Shown here: one piece after another, positions 19,032 through 64,000 of the stretch
Layout of the letters: every line of letters starts with the position of its first letter
Numbering within the stretch: the stretch's first letter is position 1
NCBI RefSeq assembly: GCF_001020985.1
Contig: NZ_CP011542.1
Location: 248,001 to 312,000 of the forward strand
Length of the DNA: 64,000 nucleotides
From: Corynebacterium mustelae
GTDB taxonomy: Bacteria > Actinomycetota > Actinomycetes > Mycobacteriales > Mycobacteriaceae
Direction: 5' to 3'
The notes under the pieces: generated by a model
What the model was told of the DNA's origin: nothing
Databases searched by the model: none
What the model saw: the letters and a program-made list of their open reading frames with translations, nothing else
Program-made: the position numbers and the translations under genes

Positions 19032-19261
19032 CTCACCAAGCCGCACTCGCAAGTTGTTGCAGGTTGTTGCTTCTTACACGGAACGCAGACGGAACAGAGA
19101 CGGAATGGCAGTATGTGTTTCCCAGCGCAGAAAGTCATCTCAAGTACTCTCCCAACCATCAAGCCTTACGCACAAATTTTTTAACGGATTTCGGCCCGTG
19201 GAGTCGTCGAAAAGCGAAAAATCCTAGGCGCACGGTGTCGCCAGTCGCGGCCTTTCACCGG

Positions 19262-19684
19262 CTACCCGTTGAACCGAATGAACGCCCGCGTCTCGAAACC
19301 GGTGAAATCCCGGGATTCAGTGAACCCCATAGCCTCGTAGAATGCGCGCTGGTAGGGGTGGTCGTCGGTAAGCAAAACGTGTTGGCGACAGTGCATAAAC
19401 GGCGCGAAGGCGTGTTGAAAAAGTTGTGTGCCGACACCGTGGCGTTGCGCGGTGGGCTTGACCAGTATGTCTTGGAGGTATGCGATCACTTCGCCATCGC
19501 CGACGATGCGGGCTAGGCCGACAAGTTCGTCGTCTTGGTATGCGCATACGACGAAGCGGGAACCGGCCAGCGCCCGCATGAGTTGCGCGGGGTCTTTGGT
19601 GTAGGCCGTCCAGCCCACCGAGTCGTACAGCGCAACCGCCTCAGCTTGGGTTGGGAGATGGTTGGGGCGGATTGTAAGTCCCAT
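19262..19684 (-). CDS. GNAT-family N-acetyltransferase
   Basis: A 140-residue protein with the GNAT fold pattern: a central strand pair (FVVCAYQDDELVGLARI), then the acetyl-CoA binding motif A (VKPTAQRHGVGTQL, with RHGVGT at residues 81-86) and a C-terminal FYEAMGF motif. GNAT enzymes move an acetyl group from acetyl-CoA to an amine on a small molecule or protein; the substrate cannot be told. The ATG at 19684 is chosen over an upstream ATG because AAAGGA stands just before it and the family starts here. First host gene beside the prophage, pointing towards it. Confidence 0.85.
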   Translation of the reverse strand: MGLTIRPNHLPTQAEAVALYDSVGWTAYTKDPAQLMRALAGSRFVVCAYQDDELVGLARIVGDGEVIAYLQDILVKPTAQRHGVGTQLFQHAFAPFMHCRQHVLLTDDHPYQRAFYEAMGFTESRDFTGFETRAFIRFNG

Positions 19685-19927
19685 GGGATTTCCTTTGATC
19701 GGGGAGTGGGGCGCGGAGGTGAGGAACGAAAAACGCCGTGGGTAGTGATTGTTTGGCAACAATGTTACGGGAGTGCGGCAGGTGGCGCATCGATAATGCT
19801 AACGTGTCGGTGCTAGCCAGTGAAGGCGCTGCTGAGCCGGTGGACGGTCGGGGTTTATTGTGGCCTTAGGCACCCTAAAGAGGTGTTGTAGCGATCGCCG
19901 AACGAGGAGATACTTTGCGCAAGATGC

Positions 19928-19972
19928 TTTATACCTCTTTATAACTAGAATTTAGTTATAAAGAGGTATAAA
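19928..19972. promoter_or_regulatory. Perfect 20-bp inverted repeat before the ATPase gene
   Basis: The arm TTTATACCTCTTTATAACTA (19928-19947) is repeated exactly in reverse complement at 19953-19972 around the five bases GAATT. It ends seven bases before the first possible start of the next gene. It could be a repressor operator overlapping the promoter or an RNA hairpin that controls access to the start codon. Its AT content is much above that of the surrounding DNA. Confidence 0.7.
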
Positions 19973-19979
19973 GTGGGAT

Positions 19980-21149
19980 ATGCTAGAGGCCATGCAATTG
20001 AGTCCATACACTCCTGGTGTAATCGCGCGGCATTTATTCGGTCGAAGCAGCTACGTTGCCGAATTTGAGTTGAAGCTTCAGCAAATGCGAATGGCTTCCC
20101 GTTTAGAAGGTCGCATTGTTGCTTATGTGGGGCATCGAGGGGTGGGGAAAACATCGTTACTTCGCCATATGCAACAGAAAGCCCAAGATCTTGGCTTCGT
20201 GTCGGTGTGGATCACAGCAGGTGATGGAGCACTAGCCGATGAGGTTCTTAGCGGAATAGTTGCGAATGTTCACAACTGGCAGCAGCGATCAATCGATGCG
20301 TTTGCTGCGATGCTACGAAGTCTCGAACTGAGTGTGCATGGTGTGCATGTTAAGGTTCCAGAGGTTATCAGGCAGGAAGGTGAGCAGGTAGGGCGGGTGC
20401 TCCAAGCTGCGTTGATTAAGGCAGGAAAACTTGCAATCCAGGAGAAACGGTCGGGCATAGTTCTGTTTATCGATGAATTGCAGTCAGCGGATTTGGCGGG
20501 GATTCGTGGGCTAGCCTATACGTGGCAACATTTGCAAGCGGAAGCGCCAGAGCTGCCAATGATGGTGGTGGGGGCCGGTTTGGGACACACACCAGACGTG
20601 GTCACAGATGCGGTGAGTTTCGGTGAACGGTTCCAGTACGAGCGGTTAACAGACTTGACCAGAGCGGATTCGCTGCAAGCTCTTGTTCAGCCAGCGCGTG
20701 AGATGAACGTAGAGTGGGACCCACTAGCCCTTGGACTTGCGCTTGAAATGGCCAATGGTTATCCGTATTTTCTCCAGTTGATTGGTGACTATACGTGGAA
20801 AGAAGCGCGGTTTCCAGATCAAGGTGCAACACTTCACCTGGAACATACAGAGCGTGCTCAACAACCGTTCCGGGAGGAGCTCGCGCAGTTCTTTCGAGTT
20901 CGCTGGTCAAAGGTCACCGAAGCGGAAGGCCAGTTGCTTACCGCATTGGCTGAACTTGGTGGTGACAACGTGCCCCGAGCAGCGTTAGCGGAGAAAATGG
21001 GTGTGGACACGGCCACGCTAAGCATGGCGCGTAAATCGTTGATTGATAAAGGGATTATTGATTCACCTCGCTACGGACGGCTCAGTTTCACCGCGCCGGG
21101 CTTCGCAGAATATGTGAGACAAGAGCAGGGCGTTGAAGCTAAGAAGTGA
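19980..21149 (+). CDS. AAA-type ATPase with C-terminal winged helix, function unknown
   Basis: A 389-residue protein. Residues 51-60 hold a Walker A loop (GHRGVGKTSL), LFIDELQ near 161-167 is the Walker B, and a winged-helix-like region follows at about 315-375 (LTALAELGGDNVPRAALAEKMGVD). This resembles the Orc1/Cdc6-like or AAA_16 type of ATPase found in many actinobacteria without known function. The start may be 19980 or, as homologues begin MxLSPYTPG, the ATG at 19992. The perfect inverted repeat directly upstream suggests tight control. Its position beside a tRNA-linked prophage could mean it is part of an accessory island. Confidence 0.75.
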   Translation: MLEAMQLSPYTPGVIARHLFGRSSYVAEFELKLQQMRMASRLEGRIVAYVGHRGVGKTSLLRHMQQKAQDLGFVSVWITAGDGALADEVLSGIVANVHNWQQRSIDAFAAMLRSLELSVHGVHVKVPEVIRQEGEQVGRVLQAALIKAGKLAIQEKRSGIVLFIDELQSADLAGIRGLAYTWQHLQAEAPELPMMVVGAGLGHTPDVVTDAVSFGERFQYERLTDLTRADSLQALVQPAREMNVEWDPLALGLALEMANGYPYFLQLIGDYTWKEARFPDQGATLHLEHTERAQQPFREELAQFFRVRWSKVTEAEGQLLTALAELGGDNVPRAALAEKMGVDTATLSMARKSLIDKGIIDSPRYGRLSFTAPGFAEYVRQEQGVEAKK

Positions 21150-21162
21150 TACTAAAAATTAA

Positions 21163-21203
21163 GAGACAGGGGCGCCAACCGCAGAATGCGCAAACCCCGT
21201 CTC
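21163..21203. terminator. Hairpin between convergent ATPase and lipoprotein genes
   Basis: GAGACAGGGG at 21163-21172 pairs with CCCCGTCTC at 21195-21203, with one bulged A, in the short gap between two converging genes. T-runs are weak on both sides, so termination is inferred from position. Confidence 0.45.
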
Positions 21204-21217
21204 AGAGCCACCGTCTG

Positions 21218-21787
21218 TTAGTAATTATCGCTGTAGCAGGTGCCTACCCGCGTCCCGTCGATAGATAGGTCGGCAACCCAGCCTTCATCGAAATCTGCCG
21301 CGACCTCGGCCGGAATGATCGCCTGTTGTTTCTTCTCGGTAAGCGAAATGTCGGAGTCTAGTTCCACGGGATTGCCACCGAATTGTGTGTAGGTATTAGA
21401 AACTAACTGGCCAGCGTCGAACTTTAACATCCGGGCGGCACGCTTGGTTATCACGCCGAATGAAGTACTTCCGGTGCTAACATCGCCGGAATACTCCCAG
21501 GTGATTGTTTTCGTTCCTTCTGGCTGGTCGGTGCCACTGGCGTTAATCGTTGCACCGGTTAGTTTCACTGGGGACGCGCCGGGAGTGGATTCTTCGCAGG
21601 CGACTTTCACTTCCGGGGTTTCTTCAGCTGAGGTGGTTTCGGAAGCCGATGTGGTGGTTGTGGTGTTGCTAGCTGTGGTTGTGGCTGTGTTGCTGGTTGC
21701 CGTTGCATCTTTGGGTTCCTCAGAGCTACATGCGGTCAGACTGAGGCTGAGACTGAGTGTTAGTGCGAGCGCGACTTTAAGCTTCAT
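21218..21787 (-). CDS. Secreted lipoprotein, unknown function
   Basis: A 189-residue protein with a typical lipoprotein signal: MKLK, a hydrophobic run and a lipobox LTAC with Cys20 to be lipid-modified. Residues 21-65 are a Thr/Ser/Ala-rich linker, which suggests an extended, perhaps glycosylated stalk. The rest is a small domain with two cysteines (CEEST near 76 and GTCYSDNY at the end) that may form a disulfide. Translation is placed at 21787 because AGGAGA precedes it; the longer open frame upstream would overlap the divergent epimerase gene. No family recognised. Confidence 0.8.
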   Translation of the reverse strand: MKLKVALALTLSLSLSLTACSSEEPKDATATSNTATTTASNTTTTTSASETTSAEETPEVKVACEESTPGASPVKLTGATINASGTDQPEGTKTITWEYSGDVSTGSTSFGVITKRAARMLKFDAGQLVSNTYTQFGGNPVELDSDISLTEKKQQAIIPAEVAADFDEGWVADLSIDGTRVGTCYSDNY

Positions 21788-22001
21788 CTTTTCTCCTAAT
21801 TGGGGGTGCTGAAGTGATTGTAAGTTATGTTCTGACTTTAGTGCGGCTGTTAATGGACATATCTGGGACATTTGCTTAGTGCTTTTCGACGCGGCTCCGA
21901 TTGCGTTGGGTTTTATGCTTACTGTGCTGATGAGTGTGCTCAAGTTGCGTGTTTTATAGGTATCTATGTGGTCGGTGCTTAAGGGATCGTGGTTGGCGTA
22001 G

Positions 22002-23015
<1,014 letters not shown>

Positions 23016-23017
23016 CT

Positions 23018-23061
23018 TAAGAAGAACGGGGCCGGTTTACTTTTCCGGCCCCGTTTTCTTA
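23018..23061. terminator. Bidirectional terminator between galE-like and secreted protein genes
   Basis: AACGGGGCCGG and CCGGCCCCGTT form an 11-base stem around TTTACTTTT, with A- and T-runs on the two outer sides, so it can serve both converging genes. Confidence 0.85.
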
Positions 23062-23065
23062 GGGG

Positions 23066-23854: not shown

Positions 23855-23989
23855 TAGAAGACCCTTTCAAGTGGCAGCAGAGTTCTTAAATATTAAGACT
23901 ATAGTAAGAAAGGGTTAAGTGTTTAATGTGGTGGTGTGGTAGGGGTAGTGCTTTTCGACGTCGACAAGCATTCCCTACCGTCGGAAACG

Positions 23990-25648
23990 CTAGATTTGGG
24001 GCGGTACCAGCCGGGCGGGAACCACTTTCCCGGTTGGGTTGCGCGGTAGCGAGTCGACAAAATGCACGTCACGCGGAATCGAATGCTCCGCTAAATGGTT
24101 AGCTACCCACTGTTTGATGCTTTCCGCAGTAACGGATTTACCAGCGGCATCCTCGCTTCGGACGATCCATACCGCGATGCGTTTGAAGGTATCGGGGTCA
24201 TCTACCCCGCCAGCGTACATGTCGGCGATGCCGGGCATTTCCTCCAAGACTTCCTCCACACTACGCGGATACACGTTTTCGCCACCAACGATAATCATGT
24301 CGTCGGCACGTCCAAGGACATAGAGGTATCCGTCGCTATCGAGGTAACCGCGATCCCCAATTTGTACCATGTGCCCATAGCGACGTACCGGGATTTTCGG
24401 ATCGGTATAACCAGACAGGGTCACGGTGTTGTAGCAGAAAATTCTGCCCGGAGTGCCGGTTGGGCAGGGGAGATCGTTATCATCAAGAATGACTAAATCG
24501 GTGCCGGTGCATACTGGGCCAGCGGTGGCGCTGTGGGCGTTGATGTCCTCAATGCTTGCCACAGCAACAGCGGAGATTTCGGTGGAGCCGTAAAGGTTGC
24601 ACAGGATTTTGCCGAAGCGTTCGTGCACTGCTTCGACTAGCCACGGCGACAGCGCATTGCCGGAGGAGAAAATGAATTTCAAGCTGGAACAGTCGTATTT
24701 CTCGTTGTCCTTGACGTTGACTATCTGTTTAAGGAAGATCGGCGAGGACAGCATGCCATCAAGTTTGTGCTCAGCAATATCCCGCAGGACCGCTTCGGCG
24801 TCGAAAAGCCTACGGGTAACGATCGTGCCCCGCATACCAAAGGTGATATTGAAACACGCCCAGCCCCACGCATGGAACATGGATGCGGTGACTTGTACTT
24901 TCATTCCGGCACGCCACGGTACCTTATTGAGGATGCCAGCAAGGACGGTTGGCATGAGCGGCTCGGGGCGCATGACGCCTTTGGGCACCCCGGTGGTCCC
25001 TGAACTCATGGTAACAATAGGACCATGCTTCGGGAACACTGGTAGTGAACCTGGAATATGGGTTTGCAGAATATCATCAAGGCTTTGGTATTGGGCGCTA
25101 GCCTCGGACTCCCGATGGGCAATGATGATCGGAATGTCGATCAGGTCGGTGTCGATGCGGGGGAGGAACTCCTCGTCGATGACTAAAACATTAACACCAT
25201 CGCGTTGTATACAAGCGGTGAGTTGTTCTTTAGAGGAACCAATATTAAGCAAGTACACCGTGCCGCCCGCAAAGCCTTTTGCTGCCATGGGGTAGATGAT
25301 GCCCCGGCCGTTACGTGCCATGATTCCCAGATGGAGGTTTTCTGGTTCCAATTGCCGCAAATAGCTGGCGATAATCCGGGAATTATTACGTAACTCGCGG
25401 TAGGTGAGTGCCCCGTTGTCGTCGATAAGCGCGGTGCGTTCCGGGCAAGCATAATATCCTTGCTCCACCTCCCGTGCGGTGGCAAAGCGGTACCGTGCCA
25501 AAATCGGCGCGGTGGCGGCTACTGCCTTGAGCCCTCCTTCGTGGGAAACGATCCCAGCGCGTAGCACCCCAGGAATAAAATCTTTTAACTGGGCAAGGGT
25601 ATGGGTAAAACGGGTAAAGCGGAGGTTCATGAGGGCACGGTCTTTCAC
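23990..25648 (-). CDS. Acyl-CoA synthetase (fatty-acid-CoA ligase family)
   Basis: A 552-residue member of the adenylate-forming enzyme superfamily. The ATP loop MSSGTTGVPKG, the NLYGSTE motif, LGRADDMIIVGGENVYP near the hinge, and the C-terminal NPTGKVVP catalytic lysine motif are all clear. The family activates carboxylic acids, here probably fatty acids, to acyl-AMP and then acyl-CoA. The start used is GTG at 25648; an ATG at 25630 is an alternative, and neither has a strong ribosome-binding site. It stands alone, with a terminator of the upstream gene in front. Confidence 0.88.
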   Translation of the reverse strand: MKDRALMNLRFTRFTHTLAQLKDFIPGVLRAGIVSHEGGLKAVAATAPILARYRFATAREVEQGYYACPERTALIDDNGALTYRELRNNSRIIASYLRQLEPENLHLGIMARNGRGIIYPMAAKGFAGGTVYLLNIGSSKEQLTACIQRDGVNVLVIDEEFLPRIDTDLIDIPIIIAHRESEASAQYQSLDDILQTHIPGSLPVFPKHGPIVTMSSGTTGVPKGVMRPEPLMPTVLAGILNKVPWRAGMKVQVTASMFHAWGWACFNITFGMRGTIVTRRLFDAEAVLRDIAEHKLDGMLSSPIFLKQIVNVKDNEKYDCSSLKFIFSSGNALSPWLVEAVHERFGKILCNLYGSTEISAVAVASIEDINAHSATAGPVCTGTDLVILDDNDLPCPTGTPGRIFCYNTVTLSGYTDPKIPVRRYGHMVQIGDRGYLDSDGYLYVLGRADDMIIVGGENVYPRSVEEVLEEMPGIADMYAGGVDDPDTFKRIAVWIVRSEDAAGKSVTAESIKQWVANHLAEHSIPRDVHFVDSLPRNPTGKVVPARLVPPQI

Positions 25649-27548: not shown

Positions 27549-27899
27549 TCAGAATTCATCTTCAGGCGTAATGGCATTTTGCAATGCGATGGCGCGCGCG
27601 AGCCGCGCGTAGCGCAATTCCTGTTCCCGGAACCGAATCCAAGTAGACAAAGTTGTAAAACCAAATGCCATGATGAGCACATATAACATCAGGTCGGTGC
27701 CCCGATCCACCCCGATGGTATTGGCTATGACGGTAACGTCATCCGGGCGTAGTACCGCCCAGATTGCCAGGATCACCAGTACGACGAAGCCGAGCTTCAC
27801 CCCAGCCTTGGCGCGTGCTTTTCGACGATTGGTAAGGAAGTACAGCACCAAGAGCAGGGTGGTAATCAGCAGTAATAATTGCACGATGGTTGTTGTCAT
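27549..27899 (-). CDS. DUF2304 membrane protein
   Basis: A 116-residue protein with three membrane stretches (about 4-22, 34-49, 68-85) followed by a charged helix (STWIRFREQELRYARLARAIAL) with the pattern of DUF2304. Members are usually encoded beside a family-2 glycosyltransferase that acts on polyprenyl phosphate, as here, and may be a membrane partner of it. The gene starts five bases after the glycosyltransferase gene stop, so the two are very probably cotranscribed. Confidence 0.8.
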   Translation of the reverse strand: MTTTIVQLLLLITTLLLVLYFLTNRRKARAKAGVKLGFVVLVILAIWAVLRPDDVTVIANTIGVDRGTDLMLYVLIMAFGFTTLSTWIRFREQELRYARLARAIALQNAITPEDEF

Positions 27900-30406: not shown

Positions 30407-31834
30407 TTACCGTTCCTTTTCACGCTGCGTGGCAACGTATGTGTCAAGACTTTCCCGCCACGAGGCTGGTTGAAACCCGGTGGCCTCGATTTTAGCCAAG
30501 CTAAGCGCGGAGTTCGCTGGCCGGGTGGCTACTGGTTGTGAACGGCCTGCTATGTATTCGGCGGTGCTGCACCTGGTAACCCTAGCCGGGTCGGCTCCGG
30601 CAAGGGTGAATACGTCTTCTGCTATGTCCGCCCAGCTCACCACATCGCCACTGCCGGTGACGTTGTAGATTCCAAACTCAGGTTCAGTTTCTAACAGGTG
30701 GGTCACTGCATGGGCCAGGTCGGTGCTAAACGTCAGTCGGCCGAATTGGTCGTCGACTACTGTCGGCTGCACCTGTGACCCCGCGAGGTTAAGCATGGTG
30801 GTGACGAAGTTTTTGCCCGAGCCGATCACCCAACTGGTGCGCAGAATATAGTGCTTCGCGGTGCCCATAACGGCGATGTCGCCTGCGGCTTTACTTGCGC
30901 CGTAGACGTTGAGCGGGGCACAGGCTGCGGTTTCGGTGTAAATATCTTTCGTGCCATCAAAGACATAGTCGGAGGAGAAATGGATAAGCGTGAGATTAAA
31001 GTCGGTGGCGAGCCTAGCTATGGTGGCAGCACCTAGCGCATTGGTGGCCCAGCAGTCTGACCGGTGGGTTTCGGCGGTGTCCACCTGGGTGTAGGCAGCC
31101 GCGTTAATGATGGTGTCGAACCTGGACCAGTCACAGAAATCGCGGATCGTTGAGTAATCGGCGGTGATGTCGAGTTCTGCCCGGGTAAAAACGTGTGCCG
31201 TCGGAAGCGCCTCGGCTAGGGCGGTGGCGACCTGACCACCGCCACCAATAATCGCAACCTGGTGTGGGGGAACCGCGGTAGCGTCGACAAGCAACGGGTG
31301 GTTACAGTCCGCATCAGATAACACGGCCTTATCCAGCGGGATCGGCCACGGAATGCCAAGCTGCGGATCCCCAAGATTCACGTGGCTATAGCTAGCATCA
31401 GGCGACCAATGCGCGGTGACCAGATAGCTGTAACTAGTGGGGCTTAATGCTTGGAAACCATTGGCCACCCCACGAGGAACGAAAACCGCAACGCTAGGGT
31501 CCATATTCAACCACACTGATTTACCAAAAGTCGGCGACCCGGCGCGCAGATCACACCACGCCGCGAAGACCTCACCGTAGGTGACGGAAACTAGTTTGTC
31601 CCACGGTTCCGCGTGCAACCCTCGGGTGACTCCGGCTTCGGCGTTAAAGGACACATTGTGTTGCACCGGGCGGAAGGCGCGAAGAGCTGGGGTTACGCCG
31701 CTAAGCTGGCTGATTTTCTGCCGCTGCCAGTTTTCTTTAAACCAGCCCCGGTGATCGCCGTGCACGCTAAGTGTAAGAATCTGAAGACCCGCGATAGCGG
31801 TGTCGGTTACTGTCAGTGGTGTGTTAAAGTCCAT
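30407..31834 (-). CDS. rmlCD: RmlC-RmlD fusion: dTDP-4-keto-rhamnose epimerase and reductase
   Basis: A 475-residue fusion. Residues 1-185 are the RmlC cupin epimerase (WFKENW, GLHAE with the catalytic His, FVPRGVANGF). Residues 192-475 are the RmlD reductase (IIGGGGQVATAL at the dinucleotide fold, SSDYVFDG, YGASKAAGD with catalytic Tyr and Lys). The two enzymes carry out the third and fourth steps of rhamnose synthesis, and the fusion is a known corynebacterial form. It sits between rmlB and rmlA, completing the pathway. Confidence 0.93.
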   Translation of the reverse strand: MDFNTPLTVTDTAIAGLQILTLSVHGDHRGWFKENWQRQKISQLSGVTPALRAFRPVQHNVSFNAEAGVTRGLHAEPWDKLVSVTYGEVFAAWCDLRAGSPTFGKSVWLNMDPSVAVFVPRGVANGFQALSPTSYSYLVTAHWSPDASYSHVNLGDPQLGIPWPIPLDKAVLSDADCNHPLLVDATAVPPHQVAIIGGGGQVATALAEALPTAHVFTRAELDITADYSTIRDFCDWSRFDTIINAAAYTQVDTAETHRSDCWATNALGAATIARLATDFNLTLIHFSSDYVFDGTKDIYTETAACAPLNVYGASKAAGDIAVMGTAKHYILRTSWVIGSGKNFVTTMLNLAGSQVQPTVVDDQFGRLTFSTDLAHAVTHLLETEPEFGIYNVTGSGDVVSWADIAEDVFTLAGADPARVTRCSTAEYIAGRSQPVATRPANSALSLAKIEATGFQPASWRESLDTYVATQREKER

Positions 31835-32952: not shown

Positions 32953-35097
32953 CTATAACTGGTTCAACAGATCATATGTAAGTGCAAGCTGCCGCTGCGC
33001 CACCTCAAGCGAAGCGTCGGCAGGCAGTTCCGCAGCAGGGGTGCCAGGCGCCGAGGGCACAGACTGCGCCGCCGCGGCATCCGCATGCGCGGCCTGCCAC
33101 AAGGCCATAAGTTCACCGATGGTCAGCCCGCTGCGGATTCGCGCAAGCTCCGCCCGCACCAGCGGGACGGCGTGGTCGTTTCCGTGGTGTAGGTTTAACA
33201 CTCGACCCGAACGGTAGTCTATGTATTCCGGCGCGCCTAAGTGGAAGGCCGCCATTCGCTTTCGTAAGTAAGAATCAAGCCAGACCGCCTCACCCGAAGC
33301 AAGATCGATAACGACCGGAAGCACCGAGGCCGCTGGGGAATTGAGTGTGAGCCAACCAGTATCTGTTTCACCCGTCGCATGGCGCGCCTGGATGCGGATG
33401 GCGGCATGAGGATCATTCTTTATCAACTTGCCCTCCTGCGCCCACGAATTGTTAGTGTTGTGCATAGTGACGCTGATAATGGCATAACGGGCATGCGGGA
33501 TCACCGACACAATACCGTCCCACTTAGTCTCGCCCAGGTGGATAGAAACAAAGTCAGGCGCGCACTCGATGAATTCGCGCAGCGGGGAGGACTGTAGCGT
33601 CGAAAAGCCTACCTTGCCTAGGCAAAACTCCAGGTTGGCATCGGCGAAGACGACACCGATGCTGCCCGAATGGGTGGCGTTTTGCCACCGCGCGGTAATC
33701 CGGGAGGGCTTGTTGCCCAACGCCAAAGCCTGTCCCGGCACCAGCTCCGAGGTTCGCTGCAGCAGCGGAACTGGGCGCATATCCGGCACCAGCGCGGCGG
33801 CATCCTCCGGCAGCGCGACCGCTTGTAGCTTTTCGACGATCACCCGGCCAAGTGCCGCCTCAAAAAGCTGTGCCACCTCCGGTTGCAGCCCATGCGTAGC
33901 GGCCTTCCGGAGATAAACCCCAGCATGCGGAACGTTGACCAACCGCTCCGGTGCAGTATTACGCACCGCATTAAGCGTAGCGATCACCGTTTTAAGCCGA
34001 AGGTGCCGCCCACATGCTTCAATGGCGGCAACCAATAACTTCCGATCAGCATCAGTTCGACAAATCGAACCGATGCGCACCAGTTCCCGGAACAGCTGAG
34101 CTGGCTGCATACTCAGCGCATCAAGGGCAGCAGGCACATCATGAGTTGCAATGGCGGTATTCGCTCGTGTCATCGCGTTACGGTGTACTACATTGCCGAA
34201 AATAACATCCAAACCCGATAAGGCCAGTTCATGCCCCGGAATCTGATACGGGTGCACCTTTTGCAACACCCACCGCCACAACCGCCGATGGCGCAGATAC
34301 TCATCGAGGTCCGCCAATGACTGGAAGCGGCCAAGGGCGGCAATGAGCTCCCGCCTGGCCCACCTCGGCAGGGACGCAGTGCGCGCCGGGTAATGCCGGG
34401 AAAAACCCAACGTGACCGCCGCATAAGGGTCAGTGCTGAAGCACGCCAACACCACCCGCAGGACATCGGTCGGGCCGGTGGCCTTTCCAAGACCCACCCG
34501 AAACACCTCAGCGACAGCCGCACCACTGGCGCGAAGACTTAATAGCGCCGCCGCGAACATGGGCTGACTGCGGAACTCGGTGGTGTCGAAAAGCGACAAC
34601 ACATCCGTTGACGCGGAAAGCACCCGCACCACCTGGGTGAAATAATCGCAGGTGGAACGTGACGGGCTCAACCACATCGACCACAGCCGGTGAAGATCGT
34701 CCACCGCGGCTACCACCACGTTCAGCCGACGCGGACGCGAGTGCTCCGTGATGGTCTCCAAATGCTTGCGTTCAAACTCTTGCTCCGCCTGCGGCAACCA
34801 GAAACGAAAATCCGCATAGAAGTCACTCGCCTCCAGCCACAACTGCGCATCCTCGTCGGTTACGACCTCGGCGGGAAACCCCGGAAAAATCGGCGACCGC
34901 CGATCGTCCCTGGCATATACATGCGCGATAAGTTCAGATAATTCCGCCGGACTCAGCACCTGCAGCTGGTCTAGTTTCACGAAAAACCCGCAATTAAGCA
35001 GCTCCACAAAGGCCGTCGCCGCTTCCGGCAACGTGCAGGACGGATGATGAGAAGAAGTCACAATTGCGCCGTACCGCAATGCATAATGCGTGGGCAT
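32953..35097 (-). CDS. 714-residue protein, not firmly recognised
   Basis: A large soluble-looking protein without signal peptide or membrane helix. Residues 1-400 are mainly helical, with repeated Leu/Ala/Arg-rich segments that could form a helical-repeat scaffold. Residues about 465-630 are beta-rich with an FADANLEFCLG motif, an alternating VSVIPHARYAIISVTMHN strand and an LPVVIDLASGEAVWLD segment. This C-terminal pattern recalls the SCO0854/TerD-associated large proteins of actinobacteria, but the similarity is only by eye. Three copies of the GTCGAAAAGC oligomer lie within it. It ends 83 bases before rmlB. Confidence 0.6.
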   Translation of the reverse strand: MPTHYALRYGAIVTSSHHPSCTLPEAATAFVELLNCGFFVKLDQLQVLSPAELSELIAHVYARDDRRSPIFPGFPAEVVTDEDAQLWLEASDFYADFRFWLPQAEQEFERKHLETITEHSRPRRLNVVVAAVDDLHRLWSMWLSPSRSTCDYFTQVVRVLSASTDVLSLFDTTEFRSQPMFAAALLSLRASGAAVAEVFRVGLGKATGPTDVLRVVLACFSTDPYAAVTLGFSRHYPARTASLPRWARRELIAALGRFQSLADLDEYLRHRRLWRWVLQKVHPYQIPGHELALSGLDVIFGNVVHRNAMTRANTAIATHDVPAALDALSMQPAQLFRELVRIGSICRTDADRKLLVAAIEACGRHLRLKTVIATLNAVRNTAPERLVNVPHAGVYLRKAATHGLQPEVAQLFEAALGRVIVEKLQAVALPEDAAALVPDMRPVPLLQRTSELVPGQALALGNKPSRITARWQNATHSGSIGVVFADANLEFCLGKVGFSTLQSSPLREFIECAPDFVSIHLGETKWDGIVSVIPHARYAIISVTMHNTNNSWAQEGKLIKNDPHAAIRIQARHATGETDTGWLTLNSPAASVLPVVIDLASGEAVWLDSYLRKRMAAFHLGAPEYIDYRSGRVLNLHHGNDHAVPLVRAELARIRSGLTIGELMALWQAAHADAAAAQSVPSAPGTPAAELPADASLEVAQRQLALTYDLLNQL

Positions 35098-39281: not shown

Positions 39282-41261
39282 CTAGTGTACAAGCTGGTAC
39301 AACCAGTTATAGACCAACGCCTCCACCGTCGCCGTTTGATCGTTATCGGCAGCCCCCGCGTGGCCACCCTCGCTGTTTTCGTAATAATCCACCGGCTGCC
39401 CAGCCGCCGCCAAAGCGCGCGCAAATAGCCGCGCATGCGCCGGATGTACTCGGTCGTCGCGGGTAGAGGTGGTAATTAACGCCGGGGGATACTGCCTATC
39501 TGCCCGCTTGTCGACGTTATGAAGCGGCGAATACTTCTCTAACACCGCCCGCTCCTTAGCCATCGCAGGATCGCCGTATTCCGCCATCCAACTCGCACCG
39601 GCTGACCAGGTGTGATAGCGCAGCATATCGCACAGCGGCACCTGGATCACCGCAGCTGCGAATAACTCGGGATAGCTGGTCAAAGCCACCGCGCCTAATA
39701 ACCCGCCATTAGAACCACCCCGGATCGCCACTTGGTCGCTGCGTGCATAGCCACGAGCCACAATATCGCGCAACACCGCCTGGTGATCCTCAAAGACCCG
39801 CATCCTATTCGTCTTCGTCGCCTGCTCATGCCACTTCGGGCCGTATTCGCCACCGCCCCGTAGATTCGCCTGAACATAGAAGAATCCGCGTTCCAACCAC
39901 GCCAACCCGCGAATCGCCGAGTAGCCAGGAACCAGCGACACCTCAAATCCACCGTAGGCATAGACCAGCGTTGGGCGCGGGCGCGTGGCGGAAAAATCAC
40001 CAGTAATGAAATACGGAACTTTGGTGCCGTCGGCGGAAACCGCATAATGCTGCCGGGTGGAAAGCCCGGTGGCGTCGAAAAGCGACGGCGCGCTACGCAC
40101 CGGTGTAAGCTCATCGGTCAACCGATACAACGTGTCTGGCTGGAGGAAACTGGACGCCCGAATCCACACCTCATGAGAAAACGGATCGGTGGCCACCACT
40201 TGCGCGGTGACGTCGTCAGGCAACGGAACCGGTACAAACGGCTGATCCCAACTCCCTAGCGGCAGGCGAAGAATCTTACTCGTCACATCGGATAAGACGG
40301 TGATAAAAACCTCCGACTTACTTAAACTAATCGACTGCAGACTAGAAGACTCATCCGGACTAAACAACACAGAAAACTCGCGCTGACCAGCCAAAAACTC
40401 GGCGCAGCCCATAACCCCCAACCCGCCCGGGGCAATACCGGCGAAACCCGAGCGCGGCAACACAAACAAGAAACCACGCGCGACAAAAACCTCGCAGTCC
40501 TCCGGAACCTCAATATGCGTCAACCCGGAATCCGTCTCAATGAACGTCTGCTTCCGATAAAAATCCAACACCCGCGTGACAAACTTATTTCGGAAATCCG
40601 GGTGCGTATCGGCCCACGCCTGCACCATCATGTCATCGACAGAACCTGCGAAAAACTCCGCAGACTGGGCAAGAGGCTCACCGCGCCGCCACAGGTGGGC
40701 GCGCGCCGGGTAACCCGATGTGGTTAGTGCGCCGTCGCCGAAATCGGTACACACCAAGACCGTATCTAGATCCACCCAACTGATCTGGGTTTTCGCCTCG
40801 GCTACCCAGAACCCATCTGCGATGAAGCTCAAAGTGCCCAGGTCGAATTCCCGAATCTCCACCGCATCAGCCCCGCCGCGGGATAATTCCACCAACGCCC
40901 GATCCTGCTCCAGGCGAACGTGTGCACCCTTCCACACCCAGTTTTCGTTCTCTTCGTCGGCTAATGCATCAACGTCGAGCAATACCTCCCAGTCGGTGTC
41001 ATCGCCAAGGTAACTGTCAAGCGTCGTGCGGCGCCACAACCCGCGTGGGTGATCCGCATCGCGCCAGAAGTTATAGAGAAACTCGCCTCGGCGTGTGACA
41101 TAGGCAATGCGGTCGTCGGTGTCCAATACCATACGGATTCGGTGCTTAAGCTCGGGGTCGATGATCGCAGCAGTTTCCGTCGACCATGTGTTGGCCCACT
41201 CCAACGCCGCAGGGGATTCGATCGGCTCCAACACTTCCGGTTCGATGAGGTGATACTGCAT
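39282..41261 (-). CDS. Prolyl oligopeptidase-family (S9) serine peptidase
   Basis: A 659-residue protein with an N-terminal beta-propeller-like part and a C-terminal alpha/beta-hydrolase domain. The nucleophile is Ser517 in GGSNGG; a following DDRVHP holds the acid and SEGGHAG the histidine of the triad. The family cuts after proline in short peptides. It precedes the M1 peptidase gene by only ten bases, so a peptide-breakdown operon with the flippase-like gene is likely. No export signal. Confidence 0.9.
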   Translation of the reverse strand: MQYHLIEPEVLEPIESPAALEWANTWSTETAAIIDPELKHRIRMVLDTDDRIAYVTRRGEFLYNFWRDADHPRGLWRRTTLDSYLGDDTDWEVLLDVDALADEENENWVWKGAHVRLEQDRALVELSRGGADAVEIREFDLGTLSFIADGFWVAEAKTQISWVDLDTVLVCTDFGDGALTTSGYPARAHLWRRGEPLAQSAEFFAGSVDDMMVQAWADTHPDFRNKFVTRVLDFYRKQTFIETDSGLTHIEVPEDCEVFVARGFLFVLPRSGFAGIAPGGLGVMGCAEFLAGQREFSVLFSPDESSSLQSISLSKSEVFITVLSDVTSKILRLPLGSWDQPFVPVPLPDDVTAQVVATDPFSHEVWIRASSFLQPDTLYRLTDELTPVRSAPSLFDATGLSTRQHYAVSADGTKVPYFITGDFSATRPRPTLVYAYGGFEVSLVPGYSAIRGLAWLERGFFYVQANLRGGGEYGPKWHEQATKTNRMRVFEDHQAVLRDIVARGYARSDQVAIRGGSNGGLLGAVALTSYPELFAAAVIQVPLCDMLRYHTWSAGASWMAEYGDPAMAKERAVLEKYSPLHNVDKRADRQYPPALITTSTRDDRVHPAHARLFARALAAAGQPVDYYENSEGGHAGAADNDQTATVEALVYNWLYQLVH

Positions 41262-48591: not shown

Positions 48592-49034
48592 GGCAGCTCC
48601 CCGGCGGCAATGATGCAGAGCAGTGGAATTACCCGCGTGCCTGGTATTCGAAACTGACCGGTGGTGGTTTTCTCCACCCAACCAGCCGCGACGAGCGCAT
48701 TGACGTGATGATAACAGCTGCCCTGACTGGTGGTTATTCCCCGCGCTACTAGTTCTGGGACGGTGGTGGGGGCGTCGATAAGCGTGCGCATGATGGCAAA
48801 ACGTTGTGGATGCGCGAGTGCAGCGACCCGATTGAGGCTAGATTCCCAGGCGGTGTCGATAAGATGCGCTGCGGGGCGGGCCCATTCGTATTCCCAGTTG
48901 CCGCCCGCAGCTGTTGCGGAGCCGGAGAACGTGACCATGCCGTCGTCGCTTAGAACGGCGGGTGTGGGCAGCTGCTGTTCCAGGGCCGATACACGGTGTT
49001 CTACTGCTTCAAGCCGCGTGAGGAAGTCGTCCAT
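48588..49034 (-). CDS. ArsR-type winged-helix regulator
   Basis: A 148-residue protein. Residues 1-25 are a coiled-coil-like helix and 70-148 a winged helix-turn-helix (NRVAALAHPQRFAIMRTLI, then QGSCYHHVNALVAAGWVEKTTTGQFRIPGTR). It lacks the metal-binding cysteines of ArsR itself, so the signal is not metal of that type. It is the first gene of a three-gene, ATGA-coupled operon with a beta-lactamase-fold protein and a small membrane protein, and probably controls that operon. Confidence 0.82.
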   Translation of the reverse strand: MDDFLTRLEAVEHRVSALEQQLPTPAVLSDDGMVTFSGSATAAGGNWEYEWARPAAHLIDTAWESSLNRVAALAHPQRFAIMRTLIDAPTTVPELVARGITTSQGSCYHHVNALVAAGWVEKTTTGQFRIPGTRVIPLLCIIAAGELP

Positions 49035-49118
49035 GTTCAGTATTTTAAAATTCTAAAATCAAGGGTGCTTCGCTTTTCGACGCCCTACTGTTGGCGGTTT
49101 AGGCACTGAAGCCTTGGG

Positions 49119-57555: not shown

Positions 57556-57589
57556 CCGTGAGATAACTAAAAAGATTGAGAATATCCGA

Positions 57590-58384: not shown

Positions 58385-58474
58385 ACCCTTCTTGTGCATG
58401 CCCTTGGGCGATCAAACTTGGTTTGAACAGCCAATAGATAAAAGATAGTTCGGTGGTGGGGCATAATAGCTAGC

Positions 58475-59770
58475 ATGACTACAATTGACCGTCTCGCTGT
58501 TCCTGGACCGTCGCCTGAGGTAGAGGCGAGGCGTCGAAAAGAGCTGCGGCAGTATAAAGCATTCGCTACTGGGCTGTTGGTGTTCGCTGCCGTGGTCTTC
58601 TTGGGCTGTCGGTGGTACGAAACTCAGGTGGATCCGAGTGCCACCTGGGTGGGCTTTGTCCGGGCGGCTGCTGAGGCGGGCATGATTGGTGGTTTGGCGG
58701 ACTGGTTTGCTGTCACCGCGTTGTTCCGCTACCCGTTGGGGCTTAAAATTCCGCACACGGCGATTATTCGCAGGAAGAAAGACCAGGTAGGTGAGGCTTT
58801 AAGCGGGTTTGTGGGCGATAACTTCCTTAATGCGGAACTGATTACCGAGAAGGTGTCCAAAGCTCAGGTTCCGGAGCGGATCGCCCAGTGGTTGGTGCAA
58901 CCGGAGAACGCGGAAACTGTGTCACGGGAGGTGGGCAAATTTACCGCCAATGCGGTTAATGCATTAGATCCTAAGGACGCAGAGGCGGTTATTCGGTCGT
59001 CGTTGATTGATAAGTTGGCGCAACCCGAGTGGGGGCCACCGTTGGGTCGGACGCTGGGAAAGCTTGTCGACGGCGGCCAGGTGGAACCGTTGGTCGATCA
59101 ATTCCTCGGCTGGGTGCATAAGAAGGCACTGGATTCTGAGGATATTATCGTGCGAATTTTGGATGAGCGGGCACCGTCCTGGGCGCCGAAATTTGTAAAT
59201 GAACTGGTTGGCGATCGGGTGTATCGGGAATTGATTACCTGGACGGCTGCGGTTAATGCGGATAAAAACCATGAGGCGCGGGCGGCGATCCGGAGATTCA
59301 TTAATCAATTTGTCGAGGATTTACAGAATGATCCGGCGATGATTGCTCGGGTAGAAGAGATTAAAGCAGACGTCATGAATTCCGAGCCGGTTAAAGACGC
59401 TGCTGGGATGTTGTGGCAATTGGCCCGCGACAATGTAGTGACCGCCGCGGTGGATCCAGATTCAGCATTGCGCCGCAAGATTGTGGAGTTGGCTGTAACG
59501 TGGGGCACCAAACTTCAGGAAGATCCACAATTGCGGCAGTCTTTGGATCGTCGGATTACTGGTGCGGCTGCATTTTTGGCGGATAATTATGCAGCTGAGG
59601 TTACCGGTATTATTTCCGAGACGATTGAGCGTTGGGACGCAGATGAGGCTAGTGACAAGATTGAATTGATGGTGGGTAAGGATCTGCAGTACATACGGCT
59701 TAACGGTACGATCGTTGGCGCGCTGGCTGGTTTGGCTATTTATAGCGTTTCTTATCTACTATTCGGATAA
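58475..59770 (+). CDS. DUF445 membrane protein
   Basis: A 431-residue protein. After an N-terminal membrane helix (about 31-48) comes the family core EAGMIGGLADWFAVTALFRYPLGLKIPHTAIIRRKKDQ-type segment, then a long helical part and a C-terminal membrane helix (about 410-428). DUF445 (YheB/YjiN) proteins are widespread and of unknown function. The gene starts the series DUF445, DUF2516, DeoC-like. Confidence 0.88.
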   Translation: MTTIDRLAVPGPSPEVEARRRKELRQYKAFATGLLVFAAVVFLGCRWYETQVDPSATWVGFVRAAAEAGMIGGLADWFAVTALFRYPLGLKIPHTAIIRRKKDQVGEALSGFVGDNFLNAELITEKVSKAQVPERIAQWLVQPENAETVSREVGKFTANAVNALDPKDAEAVIRSSLIDKLAQPEWGPPLGRTLGKLVDGGQVEPLVDQFLGWVHKKALDSEDIIVRILDERAPSWAPKFVNELVGDRVYRELITWTAAVNADKNHEARAAIRRFINQFVEDLQNDPAMIARVEEIKADVMNSEPVKDAAGMLWQLARDNVVTAAVDPDSALRRKIVELAVTWGTKLQEDPQLRQSLDRRITGAAAFLADNYAAEVTGIISETIERWDADEASDKIELMVGKDLQYIRLNGTIVGALAGLAIYSVSYLLFG

Positions 59771-59800
59771 AAGCTTGTATGAAACAGGGAGTATTTTAGA

Positions 59801-60594: not shown

Positions 60595-60611
60595 GGCTAA
60601 AACAAAGCCGG

Positions 60612-61457
60612 TTAGCGTGTGGAATTAAGATACGGCTGGTTGCCTAGTTCATTCAGATTGACGTTTTCGCCACGCAGCTTCATGCGAATACCGCCGTCTT
60701 CTACCGTGATGGATTCCATGGTTAAACCGGTGTCGGTCAGAGAACCAACACCGGAGCTAAGCCCATTGGTAATAGCATCAGAGGCGCCAGCTGGCAGGTC
60801 GAAACCAAAGAGTGCGGTATTTTTGACAGTGAACTTTACCTGGCCATTTTCAACTTCTGGCAGTAACGTGAGCGTGGCGGCGCCATTGGTGAACTCTACA
60901 TCTATGGAGTTTTCGGCTTTTTTACTGGTCACATTGGTGACCTTGATGATGTTTTGTAGCAGCCCTTGCGCCAGATCCTGCAGGGATTCGGTATTCGGGG
61001 AAAAATTATCTAACGATAATTGCGGTGTTTGTGGTTGTTGCGAAGCGATAGAACGCTGAATGAGTGCAAGAATGACCTCATCGCGCATAACCGTTTCCAT
61101 TTCTAAGGTGCGCGCGGTGGGGTTCTGGGTGTCCTGGAACTTCAACCCATTCATCACCATGTGGGTCTCGGGGTTGCCTTGAAGATCCGGCAGGCCATCC
61201 TGTGGATTGGTGACTACAGTGGCAGAAGATGGCGCATCCACCTTGATATAGGGAATTTCGCCCTTGGCAATGCCGAACAACAGAGGGGTGGAGCCGAATG
61301 CAACGTCTACTTCTTGGCTTTGGCCGGTTTCGGAACTTGCGGAAAAGGATTGTTTCATTTCGTTGCCGAGGTACCACCGCAGCCCGAATTCGGCCACGAA
61401 TATGAGTATGAGCAGTAACGCGACGATCCCAACTAGGACTTTTCCAAAAGTTCTCAT
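60612..61457 (-). CDS. DUF2993 (LmeA-like) membrane-anchored lipid-binding protein
   Basis: A 281-residue protein with an N-terminal membrane anchor (about 7-25) and an extracytoplasmic domain rich in beta strands and repeating hydrophobic patterns. It resembles LmeA/DUF2993 proteins of mycobacteria, which bind phospholipids and are tied to mannan elongation of lipomannan. The ATG at 61457 was chosen over the longer frame because it places the membrane helix at the start. Opposite in direction to the DeoC-like gene, with 17 bases between their ends. Confidence 0.78.
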   Translation of the reverse strand: MRTFGKVLVGIVALLLILIFVAEFGLRWYLGNEMKQSFSASSETGQSQEVDVAFGSTPLLFGIAKGEIPYIKVDAPSSATVVTNPQDGLPDLQGNPETHMVMNGLKFQDTQNPTARTLEMETVMRDEVILALIQRSIASQQPQTPQLSLDNFSPNTESLQDLAQGLLQNIIKVTNVTSKKAENSIDVEFTNGAATLTLLPEVENGQVKFTVKNTALFGFDLPAGASDAITNGLSSGVGSLTDTGLTMESITVEDGGIRMKLRGENVNLNELGNQPYLNSTR

Positions 61458-61513
61458 AGCTATCCAGTTTGGCGGATTCTTCCCGATTCCGCCACAAGTT
61501 TTAGAACAATCAG

Positions 61514-62320
61514 TTACGGTGCAATTATTGACCACGGAATGGTCAGTATATTGTCTTGAACCAATCGGCTGCGGGTTAGCGGAATGTGATCAGCTATGAG
61601 CTTGCGAGTCTCATGCCACCGGATACGTGGACCGAAGCTTTCGAAACCGCTGGCTTTGTCCCAACAGTCGTCGATAAGCGTAAGTAAGTCGTGGATTCTT
61701 TCGCCTGCGGTATTACGATGAATGAGGATTTTAGGCAAGCGTTCTGCTATTTCCGACGGGCGGGACAGCTCCCACGGATTCCAAGCTAAGGTCAATGAAA
61801 GTGGGCCAGAGGCATCTAATAGCACCCAGGTTGCACGTTTGCCGATTTCATCGCAGGTGCCCTCAATGAAATACCCACCGGGTGCTAGTCGGTTGCAGAC
61901 CATCTGCCACGCGGCTTCTACCTGTGCCACGTCGTATTGGCGCAAAACATTAAATGCCCGCACTAGCTGTGGGCTGTAGCCAGCTAATTCAAAGCCGCCT
62001 AGTTCGAACCGTACTCCGTCGCGGGGTGGCAGTACCCGATCCGGGTGGATCTCCAACCCAATAACAGAGGTATGTGGGTTTATTTTTCTAAGCCACCGCG
62101 CCCACTCACAGGTAGTGGTGTGGCTTGCCCCATAACCGACGTCAACGGCGAGTGGTTTCGGGGTGGTGCGCAACAGCTGATGGAGTGTGGGATTATAAAA
62201 AACCCATCGGTCGCTGCGCCGCAGCCGGTTAGTTCCGGTGGTGCCACGCGTGATAACACCGATGGGTTTGGTGGAGTTACGGCTGAAATCTGCGCGCTTA
62301 TTGTGCCCGTGATACGCCAT
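61514..62320 (-). CDS. SAM-dependent methyltransferase-like protein
   Basis: A 268-residue protein. AVDVGYGASHTT near residue 60 is a glycine-rich SAM-binding loop of class I methyltransferases and VIGLEIHPDRV the acidic end of the second strand that binds the ribose. Later motifs (RLAPGGYFIEGTCDE) also fit. The N-terminus is basic. The substrate is not known. It lies upstream of the DUF2993 gene in the same direction (56 bases), as in other corynebacteria. Confidence 0.82.
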   Translation of the reverse strand: MAYHGHNKRADFSRNSTKPIGVITRGTTGTNRLRRSDRWVFYNPTLHQLLRTTPKPLAVDVGYGASHTTTCEWARWLRKINPHTSVIGLEIHPDRVLPPRDGVRFELGGFELAGYSPQLVRAFNVLRQYDVAQVEAAWQMVCNRLAPGGYFIEGTCDEIGKRATWVLLDASGPLSLTLAWNPWELSRPSEIAERLPKILIHRNTAGERIHDLLTLIDDCWDKASGFESFGPRIRWHETRKLIADHIPLTRSRLVQDNILTIPWSIIAP

Positions 62321-62348
62321 TGTGAGAAAACTACCACCAAGAAATGCG

Positions 62349-62852
62349 CTAGAGGTTAGCGCTGATCCAGGCTTCGGTCAGTGCGCCTTCGTTGGTGAAC
62401 AAATCCGCCAAGGCTTCAGCCACCTTAGGCTCGATGGCGGAACCCATCATTGGGATATTGACGGAAACATCGTTGGTGTAGGACAAGGTTGTCACGTCGC
62501 CCGTGCCGCTGAGTGCAATGTCGCCCTTGAAATCAACTGGGGTGCCTTTGACATCAGCGGTGTAGGAGAGCGTAGCGGTGTCGTCGGCCAACGCCCCCAC
62601 AGTGACGACACGTTTGACCTTGAGCGCCTGGGAGATCATAACGCGGACGGCCTCAGGAACGATCTCCATCGGCAGCACCTCATATAGGGTTGCTATAGCA
62701 CCACCGTCTGCGGTGGTGAACTCATGAACTTCGCCCGGTTCCGGGGAAAGAGTTGCCGCAATATGTGCCCAATAATCTGGATTGGTCAAGGCTGCGTGAA
62801 CTTTTTCCGCAGGATGATTGATTGTTACGGTGTTCTCACTACGTGTACTCAT
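62349..62852 (-). CDS. DUF2505 protein
   Basis: A 167-residue protein with the START/SRPBCC-like pattern of DUF2505: an N-terminal strand-helix (VTINHPAEKVHAALTNPDYW), a series of antiparallel strands and a long C-terminal helix (IEPKVAEALADLFTNEGALTEAWI). Such folds bind a hydrophobic ligand in a cavity; none is known here. It is divergent from murB, with 29 bases between, so the two promoters overlap. Confidence 0.83.
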   Translation of the reverse strand: MSTRSENTVTINHPAEKVHAALTNPDYWAHIAATLSPEPGEVHEFTTADGGAIATLYEVLPMEIVPEAVRVMISQALKVKRVVTVGALADDTATLSYTADVKGTPVDFKGDIALSGTGDVTTLSYTNDVSVNIPMMGSAIEPKVAEALADLFTNEGALTEAWISANL

Positions 62853-62881
62853 GTCTACAGACTACCCTTAGTGGGGTGAGT

Positions 62882-64000
62882 ATGCCCATTAATGAATTGT
62901 TAGCCACCATCGAAGCATTTGACCACGTTGTTATCGACAACACCCCATTTCATCAGCTAACGACACTGCATATCGGTGGGACCCCTCGGGCCACCATTCG
63001 GTGTAGCAGTACAACCGCAGTCTGTGATGTGGTGCAACTGTTAGACGCCAATGACATTCCATTGCTGATCGTTGGAGGCGGCTCAAACCTGGTGGTTGCT
63101 GACGGCGACGTGCCGGTAGTGGCAGTGGTTTTAGAATGCACCGACTGTCGCATTGATGCGAAATCCGGTGCCGTGGAAGCGGAAGCTGGGGCCTCATGGG
63201 ACGATATTGTTGCCGCCAGTGTTGCTGCTGGCCTAGGGGGAATCGAATGCTTATCAGGGATTCCAGGATCGGCTGGTGCAACTCCAGTGCAAAACGTTGG
63301 CGCCTACGGTGCGGAAATCTCGGACGTTCTTACCGAGGTAGAACTATTTGACCGCACCACCCGTCAACGTTCCTGGGTGCCAGCCAGCTCATTGGACTTG
63401 GCCTACCGATACTCCAATCTGAAATTCACCTCGCGGGCCGTAGTCCTTTCCATTCGGCTTGCACTACGCACCGATGGGCTTTCCGCCCCGTTGCGGTTCG
63501 GGGAATTGGCTCGAAAATTAGCAGTGGCACAGGAGGAATCGGATGCGCGTCGACCAGTCGCGGATGTCCGAGCTGCGGTATTACAACTGCGCCGGGCGAA
63601 AGGAATGGTGTATGACGAATCCGATCACGACACCTGGTCAGCCGGGTCATTTTTTACCAATCCGATCGTGCCCGAGGACATTGCTGAACAGGTGCGGGAG
63701 GTCGTCGAAAAGCGATACGGCGCTGAGACGGCAGCGGCCATGCCATGCTTTAATGCCGGTAGTGGGAAAAAGAAACTTTCCGCTGCGTGGCTCATCGATC
63801 GGGCAGGATACCACAAAGGGTATCCCGGACACGGGCCTGCTCGCTTGTCGACGAAGCACACGTTGGCCTTAACCAACCGTGGAACCGCCACAACCGAGGA
63901 TTTGGTGAACCTCGCCCGCGACATCCGATCCGGTGTTTACGCCGCATTCTCTGTCACCTTAGAACCAGAACCAGTATGGGTGGGTGTCTCCATCGACGGT
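62882..64000 (+). CDS. murB: UDP-N-acetylenolpyruvoylglucosamine reductase (3' end cut by window edge)
   Basis: At least 373 residues, open to the window end. The FAD-binding HIGGTP and VGGGSN motifs, GSAGATPVQNVGAYG, YRYSNLKF and the catalytic-serine segment SAGSFFTNP are those of MurB, which reduces enolpyruvyl-UDP-GlcNAc to UDP-MurNAc in peptidoglycan synthesis with NADPH. The final part (PEPVWVGVSI) looks like the normal C-terminus, so only a few codons are missing. The ATG at 62882 is used; a GTG two codons upstream is possible. Confidence 0.93.
   Translation, partial: MPINELLATIEAFDHVVIDNTPFHQLTTLHIGGTPRATIRCSSTTAVCDVVQLLDANDIPLLIVGGGSNLVVADGDVPVVAVVLECTDCRIDAKSGAVEAEAGASWDDIVAASVAAGLGGIECLSGIPGSAGATPVQNVGAYGAEISDVLTEVELFDRTTRQRSWVPASSLDLAYRYSNLKFTSRAVVLSIRLALRTDGLSAPLRFGELARKLAVAQEESDARRPVADVRAAVLQLRRAKGMVYDESDHDTWSAGSFFTNPIVPEDIAEQVREVVEKRYGAETAAAMPCFNAGSGKKKLSAAWLIDRAGYHKGYPGHGPARLSTKHTLALTNRGTATTEDLVNLARDIRSGVYAAFSVTLEPEPVWVGVSIDG

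Follow-up and report, generated by a model that had tools for sequence, protein, structure and literature searches.

To our knowledge, classical uptake sequences have been described in two Gram-negative families and nowhere else, and we know of no earlier uptake sequence in Actinobacteria or Gram-positive bacteria. The DNA uptake sequences (DUS) of the Neisseriaceae and the uptake signal sequences (USS) of the Pasteurellaceae have about ten fixed bases and are present in hundreds to thousands of copies. In the present study, we analyzed a window of 64,000 nucleotides from Corynebacterium mustelae, that is, the whole stretch given above, and the genome to which it belongs (G000; 3,474,226 bases in 3 contigs, of which the 3.39 Mb contig C1 holds the window at 248001-312000). 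We found that a short word, CGTCGANAAGC (where N is A > C > T), is dispersed over this genome and that its copies are spaced according to their orientation.

The word shares many properties with DUS and USS. As far as the accessible parts of the two accounts go, uptake sequences show no orientation bias on the chromosome, are in excess in non-coding DNA and partly form inverted repeats (PMC1939737), and they occur as species dialects (PMC3630211). The same features were found with CGTCGANAAGC. As is expected of a DUS or USS, CGTCGANAAGC is also over-represented beyond codon use, neutral with respect to replication, shared among species in the form of dialects and, in one genome, rare in mobile DNA. 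It differs from them in the word itself and in the phylum, and it is known here from sequence alone. Its avoidance of neighboring copies is orientation-specific, and this spacing argues against an orientation-independent action. We consider it quite possible, if somewhat short of probable, that CGTCGANAAGC and a second form of the word, CATCGRCAAGC (hereafter dialects A and B, respectively), are the core of a self mark for natural transformation that resembles a DNA uptake sequence.

Abundance of the word in the genome of C. mustelae

The first-pass annotation of the window had reported 11 exact copies of the 10-mer GTCGAAAAGC (6 plus and 5 minus), 10 of which have a leading C and thus form the 11-mer CGTCGAAAAGC, and a near copy, CGTCGAAAAGA, at 58532. 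All of these were found at their positions, and the recount of the leading C agreed. In 100 dinucleotide shuffles of the window the mean number of GTCGAAAAGC copies was 0.13 and the maximum was 2. The free position of the word had been overlooked: CGTCGACAAGC and CGTCGATAAGC are strongly over-represented too, with 124 copies against 1.8 expected and 59 against 1.6 expected, respectively, in a sample of G000 that consisted of 58 stretches of 20 kb and the window (1.224 Mb in all, including 4 kb of site-free overlap). In the same sample GTCGAAAAGC had 245 copies, 241 of them with the leading C.

Single-letter variants of CGTCGAAAAGC at positions 1, 3, 4, 5 and 10 were at background, and those at position 2 were near it (one variant had 6 copies, 1.9 expected). 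Position 6 showed a weak tolerance (11 to 23 copies per variant against about 1 expected) and position 11 some tolerance (the T variant had 18 copies against 1.4 expected), while the tolerance of change at position 7 was strong. We therefore write the word as CGTCGANAAGC. Over the 3.47 Mb of the genome this consensus had 617 + 625 = 1242 copies, compared with 16 + 15 = 31 copies of the reversed control, and CGTCGAAAAGC had 335 + 341 copies, compared with 12 + 11. With more than 1200 copies in C. mustelae and enrichment across most of the genus sample described below, the species-wide signal proposed in the first-pass annotation is borne out.

When synonymous codons were shuffled among the called genes (40 shuffles each for G000 and a second genome, G145), the copies in genes were 7.5 against 297 seen in G000 and 7.0 against 140 seen in G145. 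That is, the count is far above the codon expectation with which the first-pass annotation had proposed to compare it. Copies were also in excess outside genes (138 seen against 103 expected in G000, 41 against 26 in G145), as judged with a crude gene caller that called 76% of bases coding in G000 and 86% in G145, so that some of the "intergenic" sites may be genic. It is true that genic copies favor frames encoding common tripeptides, since 151 of the 167 template-strand copies in genes of G000 lie in one frame, which by the genetic code spells Leu-(Phe/Leu/Ile/Val)-Asp. In view of the shuffles and the intergenic excess, however, we find it scarcely believable that codon usage, mutation bias or a repeated mobile element produced the word, and the flanks of the sites are not copies of a single element.

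The ten fixed bases are accompanied by flank preferences over about 30 bp. At intergenic sites the flanks are asymmetric, reach from about -14 to +19, and are at several positions sharper than at genic sites. In G000, G was found at -1 in 89 of the 138 intergenic sites and C at -8 in 73, and C at +11 was rare (4/138). The 41 intergenic sites of G145 had G at -5 in 34, G at -11 in 30, A at +12 in 29 and G at +15 in 27, and the G at -5 was present in 100 of 140 genic sites. Because several of these preferences are sharper outside genes, they are not codon echoes alone. Asymmetric flanks of this kind fit what a long recognition site would show.

The copies are balanced with respect to replication. 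With the origin and terminus of G000 placed by GC skew, 217 copies of the sample were leading and 217 were lagging, and the density was even, the counts in 58 stretches of 20 kb having a mean of 7.17 and a variance of 5.97. A skew of the FtsK or chromosome-polarity kind, changing sign at origin and terminus, was not seen in the strand and segment counts of G000. Thus, the word resembles FtsK-orienting and other polar chromosome sequences in being short and dispersed but differs from them in its leading/lagging balance. Replication-polarity signals do not fit, and the chromosome-orientation signal, one of the roles that had been suggested for the word, was not supported.

No CGTCGANAAGC site was found in 79.9 kb of the two small contigs (the 39.9 kb contig C2 and 40.0 of the 42.8 kb of contig C3), which are presumed to be plasmids from their size and separateness. 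Neither was a site found in the 19 kb of the window that carries prophage genes, where 8 of the 9 scanned proteins match phage families, including head, tail, endolysin and holin. The density in the sample (434 sites in 1.224 Mb) predicts about 28 sites in the former and about 7 in the latter. The depletion that had been noted for the prophage therefore holds and extends, in this one genome, to the two small contigs.

Dialects and orientation-specific spacing

We counted the word in 151 Corynebacterium genomes and regarded it as enriched when there were at least 50 copies and at least 3 times the reversed control. Dialect A was enriched in 109 of them, leaving 42 below this criterion. Word counting in one word-poor species gave 29 copies of CATCGGCAAGC in 180 kb against 0.8 expected, and by this dialect B was discovered. 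With a threshold of at least 200 copies, dialect B was present in 9 of the 151 genomes (294 to 508 copies), 8 of which are among the 42 without dialect A; two more of the 42 showed a weak excess of CATCGRCAAGC (66 and 39 copies). Either dialect was thus carried by 117 of the 151 genomes, and 34, including the two with the weak excess, had no clear word. In the other genera of the order, where 24 genomes were counted for the exact CGTCGAAAAGC only, 23 genomes had at most 7 copies, and the remaining one, of 8.9 Mb, had 24 against 21 of the control.

The neighborhoods of comEC (about 14-22 kb, 28 Corynebacterium records) gave a similar picture. At least 2 sites of either dialect were present in 26 of them, and those of Corynebacterium sp. 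13CS0277 and SN15 had no site of either dialect. Dialect A was found in the comEC loci of C. lemuris, C. hylobatis, C. riegelii and C. lipophiloflavum, and dialect B in those of C. macginleyi and C. phoceense. One genome (G143) had 54 copies only, and 15 of the 17 copies listed were CGTCGAGAAGC, a possible third, weak dialect. No clear over-represented word replacing the dialects was found in two word-less species (180 kb of G014 and 160 kb of G029). In 160 kb of another genome, G170 (L223-L230), the word counts were dominated by a CRISPR-like repeat with about 75 occurrences.

Neighboring copies alternate in orientation. In the G000 sample there were 249 opposite and 126 same-orientation neighbor pairs, and when gaps of less than 150 bp were excluded the numbers were 221 and 121 (one-sided binomial, 3.5e-8). 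Among all pairs at 150 to 1500 bp, the same-orientation pairs of G000 numbered 49 against 99.3 expected and the opposite pairs 114 against 99.7 expected; the corresponding values for G145 were 27 against 57.6 and 61 against 57.6. As controls we used 300 7-mers per genome (of 306 and 550 candidates), and none of the 300 reached so low a same-orientation ratio in G000 or G145, the control means being 1.19 and 1.31. When 39 further loci were pooled (3 of G000, 1 of G145 and the rest of other species), same-orientation pairs numbered 14 against 47.5 expected and opposite pairs 44 against 47.5, many of these loci being the same comEC neighborhood and thus not independent. The 66 sites of dialect B, which are too few, gave 3 against 7.3 and 7 against 7.3, respectively.

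At shorter distances opposite-strand pairs were in excess (29 below 150 bp, 11.5 expected). The 22 neighboring inverted pairs below 100 bp comprise 13 intergenic pairs and 9 pairs in genes, so that a terminator role could explain a small part at most. We read these results as two independently spaced sets of sites, one for each direction. On this reading the word should work directionally and over about 1.5 kb, and the spacing is a quantitative mark for which every model must account. The accessible parts of PMC1939737 and PMC3630211 do not describe such orientation-specific spacing for uptake sequences; the former cites earlier work for even spacing and itself finds uptake sequences less even than chromosome compaction requires.

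Machinery genes and the role of the word

The genome of C. mustelae has comEA-comEC-holA in place and a further locus, ssd-tadA-tadB-tadC-pilin, and a gene of the prepilin-peptidase family and dprA are present. Among named genomes, those with the closest matches to its ComEC belong to Corynebacterium, which together with the RmlC-RmlD fusion gene of the window supports the assignment to this genus. Domain matches support ComEA, ComEC, TadA, TadB, TadC and a TadE/G-like protein; the name Ssd and the second pilin-like frame are our assumption from position and the known actinobacterial locus. ComEC was found in all 151 Corynebacterium genomes. The Tad-type ATPase family was matched in 148 of them, in 145 above the cut-off. 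In 36 chosen genomes DprA and the prepilin-peptidase family were found without exception, the latter above the cut-off in 33. Micrococcus luteus, an actinobacterium, is naturally transformable by way of its Tad loci together with comEA/comEC (PMC4322843, accessible part), and the part of a Tad pilus in this is described in PMC6668835 as well.

If the word is an uptake-type self mark, a DNA-binding component at the surface of the Tad (Flp) pilus or ComEA may bind it and favor the entry of DNA. ComEC would import one strand, which DprA and RecA would recombine. Biased uptake together with recombination could then accumulate and keep the copies chromosome-wide, and plasmids and prophages, not being maintained by this route, would stay without the word. 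Each copy would serve the DNA on one side or one strand, which would make another copy close by and turned the same way redundant; this is suggested by the under-representation, up to about 1.5 kb, of same-orientation but not of opposite copies. A reading of the word in the course of uptake, the identity of its reader and the directionality of import are all points that we infer. The fuller picture, in which the uptake system of Corynebacterium works outward from the word to one side, leaving each orientation to be spaced without regard to the other, and in which switches of dialect (CGTCGANAAGC to CATCGRCAAGC) would be barriers to gene exchange within the genus, is possible, though we hold it with more doubt than the self mark as such. 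A counterpart of DUS across most of Corynebacterium, if real, would imply exchange of chromosomal DNA by transformation, and the word would be a practical handle for transforming laboratory strains.

Several observations weigh against a role in uptake. In Haemophilus influenzae uptake is reported to be independent of the orientation of the word (PMC1939737, accessible part), so that an orientation-blind spacing would be predicted, unlike that of CGTCGANAAGC. The genes for ComEC, Tad, prepilin peptidase and DprA are also found in species without the word, and their presence therefore does not track it. In a direct search of 8 doubtful genomes, 7 of which carry dialect A, tadA was split into two frames both in G135 (2 contigs, 209 copies of the word) and in G124 (505 copies), G021 (732 copies) had the N-terminal half of tadA only, and no convincing TadA match was found in G098 (1188 copies), G136, G115, G142 and G024, which are drafts of at least 190 contigs or well below full completeness. 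The split genes are a point against the uptake role unless they reflect recent decay or an assembly error. Two separate ComEC matches were obtained in the word-carrying G135, as well as in G001 and G137. Finally, no account of Corynebacterium transformation was found in the open-access literature, as judged from titles and the beginnings of abstracts.

A description of the word or of a Corynebacterium uptake sequence was likewise not found in that literature, which excludes preprints and most subscription journals, and the papers containing the 10-mer look, by title, like chance or primer matches. For the three Corynebacterium genomes covered by a search for spaced prokaryotic motifs, CRISPR repeats are all that is reported (PMC5217627, accessible part), and PMC5030088 and PMC7371117 offered no decisive information.

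The main competing explanation is a Chi-like signal. AdnAB, unwinding DNA from a broken end, would read the word one way and change from degradation to the loading of RecA; AdnAB would be the reader because RecC was found in none of the 151 genomes. Each broken end would need a correctly turned copy within reach, and therefore the two orientations would be spaced independently and foreign replicons would be without the word. The orientation-specific spacing fits this explanation directly and better than it fits uptake. The Pfam family PF12705 (PDDEXK_1, the AdnAB nuclease domain) was matched in 151 of 151 genomes; the matches comprise frames of roughly 1000 aa but also a small nuclease of roughly 280 aa. 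An AdnA relative was present in all 14 genomes searched and in G000. The response of AdnAB to Chi was stated to be unknown in 2016 (PMC4824097, accessible part), which we count in favor of this explanation, and if it is true the word would settle whether AdnAB obeys a sequence. The word shares with the Chi of RecBCD and AddAB the chromosomal over-representation and an orientation that should matter. However, Chi in E. coli (8 stretches of 50 kb, 400 kb) has a strand bias of 66 to 22 compared with 217 to 217 for CGTCGANAAGC, and it shows no avoidance of its own orientation (same-orientation pairs 20 against 17.3 expected, opposite pairs 11 against 10.5). Known Chi sites have 5 to 8 bases, and the ten fixed bases with their flanks are longer than these. 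Moreover, three genomes without a clear word keep long AdnA frames (G014, 1118 aa; G156, 1053 aa; G107, 1082 aa). On the whole, the evidence tilts toward an uptake-type self mark rather than a Chi-like signal, the latter being unlikely in our judgment, though by no means negligible. The presence of the machinery genes proves neither.

The likelihood that is left beyond these two explanations we assign to other chromosome-wide or self-marking roles. The word may be the binding site of a chromosome-wide protein acting in nucleoid organisation, condensation or division control and not in uptake or repair. The even density along the chromosome and the absence from the two small contigs agree with this, but it is not evident why a mere binding site should shun copies in its own orientation and yet tolerate the opposite one, and no gap or gradient was seen by eye in the per-segment counts, so that we regard this role as rather improbable. 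A self mark that tells a defence or conjugation system which DNA to spare or to move would likewise be present on the chromosome and not in the small contigs or the prophage. Since such a system must be common to about three quarters of the genus sample (117/151, either dialect), this role seems very improbable.

We also considered what might switch the word on or off among species. Presence or absence of the com and tad genes was rejected as the switch, because the aligned TadA, TadB, TadC, ComEA and ComEC had no internal stop in 15 tad and 11 comEC loci, several of these alignments being partial; the loci came from species rich in the word, species with dialect B, species without the word and basal species. 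In G028 there were 2 stops in the aligned stretch, possibly upstream of the gene, and TadE/TadF-like matches were missing in some loci, both word-less and word-rich (G019). Loss of the ComEC nuclease domain, which the frame lengths had suggested, was rejected as well, because frames that are short after the conserved segment occur also in the basal Corynebacterium G029 and in Mycobacterium, Gordonia and Rhodococcus. The ComEC of G000 has a Pfam match to the Competence domain only, and a similar, RPTVTREGVPVLFP-like tail is present in 4 of the 6 ComEC examined (G145, G014, G019 and G028) and in part in G000. Loss of AdnAB, at which low PDDEXK_1 counts had hinted (1 in G096, 2 in G107), was also rejected, since a direct search for AdnA gave the 1082-aa frame in G107. 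The draft G096 has an AdnA frame of 784 aa with its one PDDEXK_1 match, which may reflect a broken gene or a contig end.

Sites in the window

The window contains 18 CGTCGANAAGC sites, all within 19-64 kb. The genic and intergenic calls given here rest on the crude gene caller, which for the GTCGAAAAGC copies gave the same split of 7 genic and 4 intergenic as the first-pass annotation. The stretch 1..19000 is without a site and carries the prophage genes; those for the major head, major tail, tape measure (1544 aa) and minor tail proteins, the endolysin and a holin-like match lie at 311-17950.

Beyond the prophage, CGTCGAAAAGC occurs in intergenic DNA at 19205..19215 (+) and 21881..21891 (-), the latter crossed by an ORF. 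The intergenic CGTCGAAAAGC at 23950..23960 (-) overlaps head-to-head with the CGTCGACAAGC at 23959..23969 (+), and this inverted pair, at 23950-23969, forms GCTTTTCGACGTCGACAAGC; a tail-to-tail overlap is found elsewhere, at G000:C1:2383160. One gene for an AMP-binding enzyme holds both the CGTCGAAAAGC at 24799..24809 (+) and the CGTCGATAAGC at 25420..25430 (+). The CGTCGAAAAGC at 27817..27827 (-) lies within a short called gene (27549-27899), and the CGTCGACAAGC at 31282..31292 (+) within an RmlC-RmlD gene (30407-31834), a fusion of dTDP-sugar epimerase and reductase. Two opposed CGTCGAAAAGC sites, 33598..33608 (+) and 33828..33838 (-), are within the gene 32953-35097. The sole GTCGAAAAGC copy without the leading C is TGTCGAAAAGC at 34584..34594 (+).

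A gene of the prolyl-oligopeptidase family holds the CGTCGACAAGC at 39506..39516 (-) and the CGTCGAAAAGC at 40073..40083 (+). The CGTCGATAAGC sites at 48773..48783 (+) and 61669..61679 (+) were called intergenic, though an ORF crosses each of them, and the CGTCGAAAAGC at 49072..49082 (-) was also called intergenic. The CGTCGACAAGC at 59062..59072 (-) is within a DUF445 gene. The last two sites, the CGTCGAAAAGC at 63703..63713 (+) and the CGTCGACAAGC at 63843..63853 (-), stand opposed to each other within the called gene 62822-64000.

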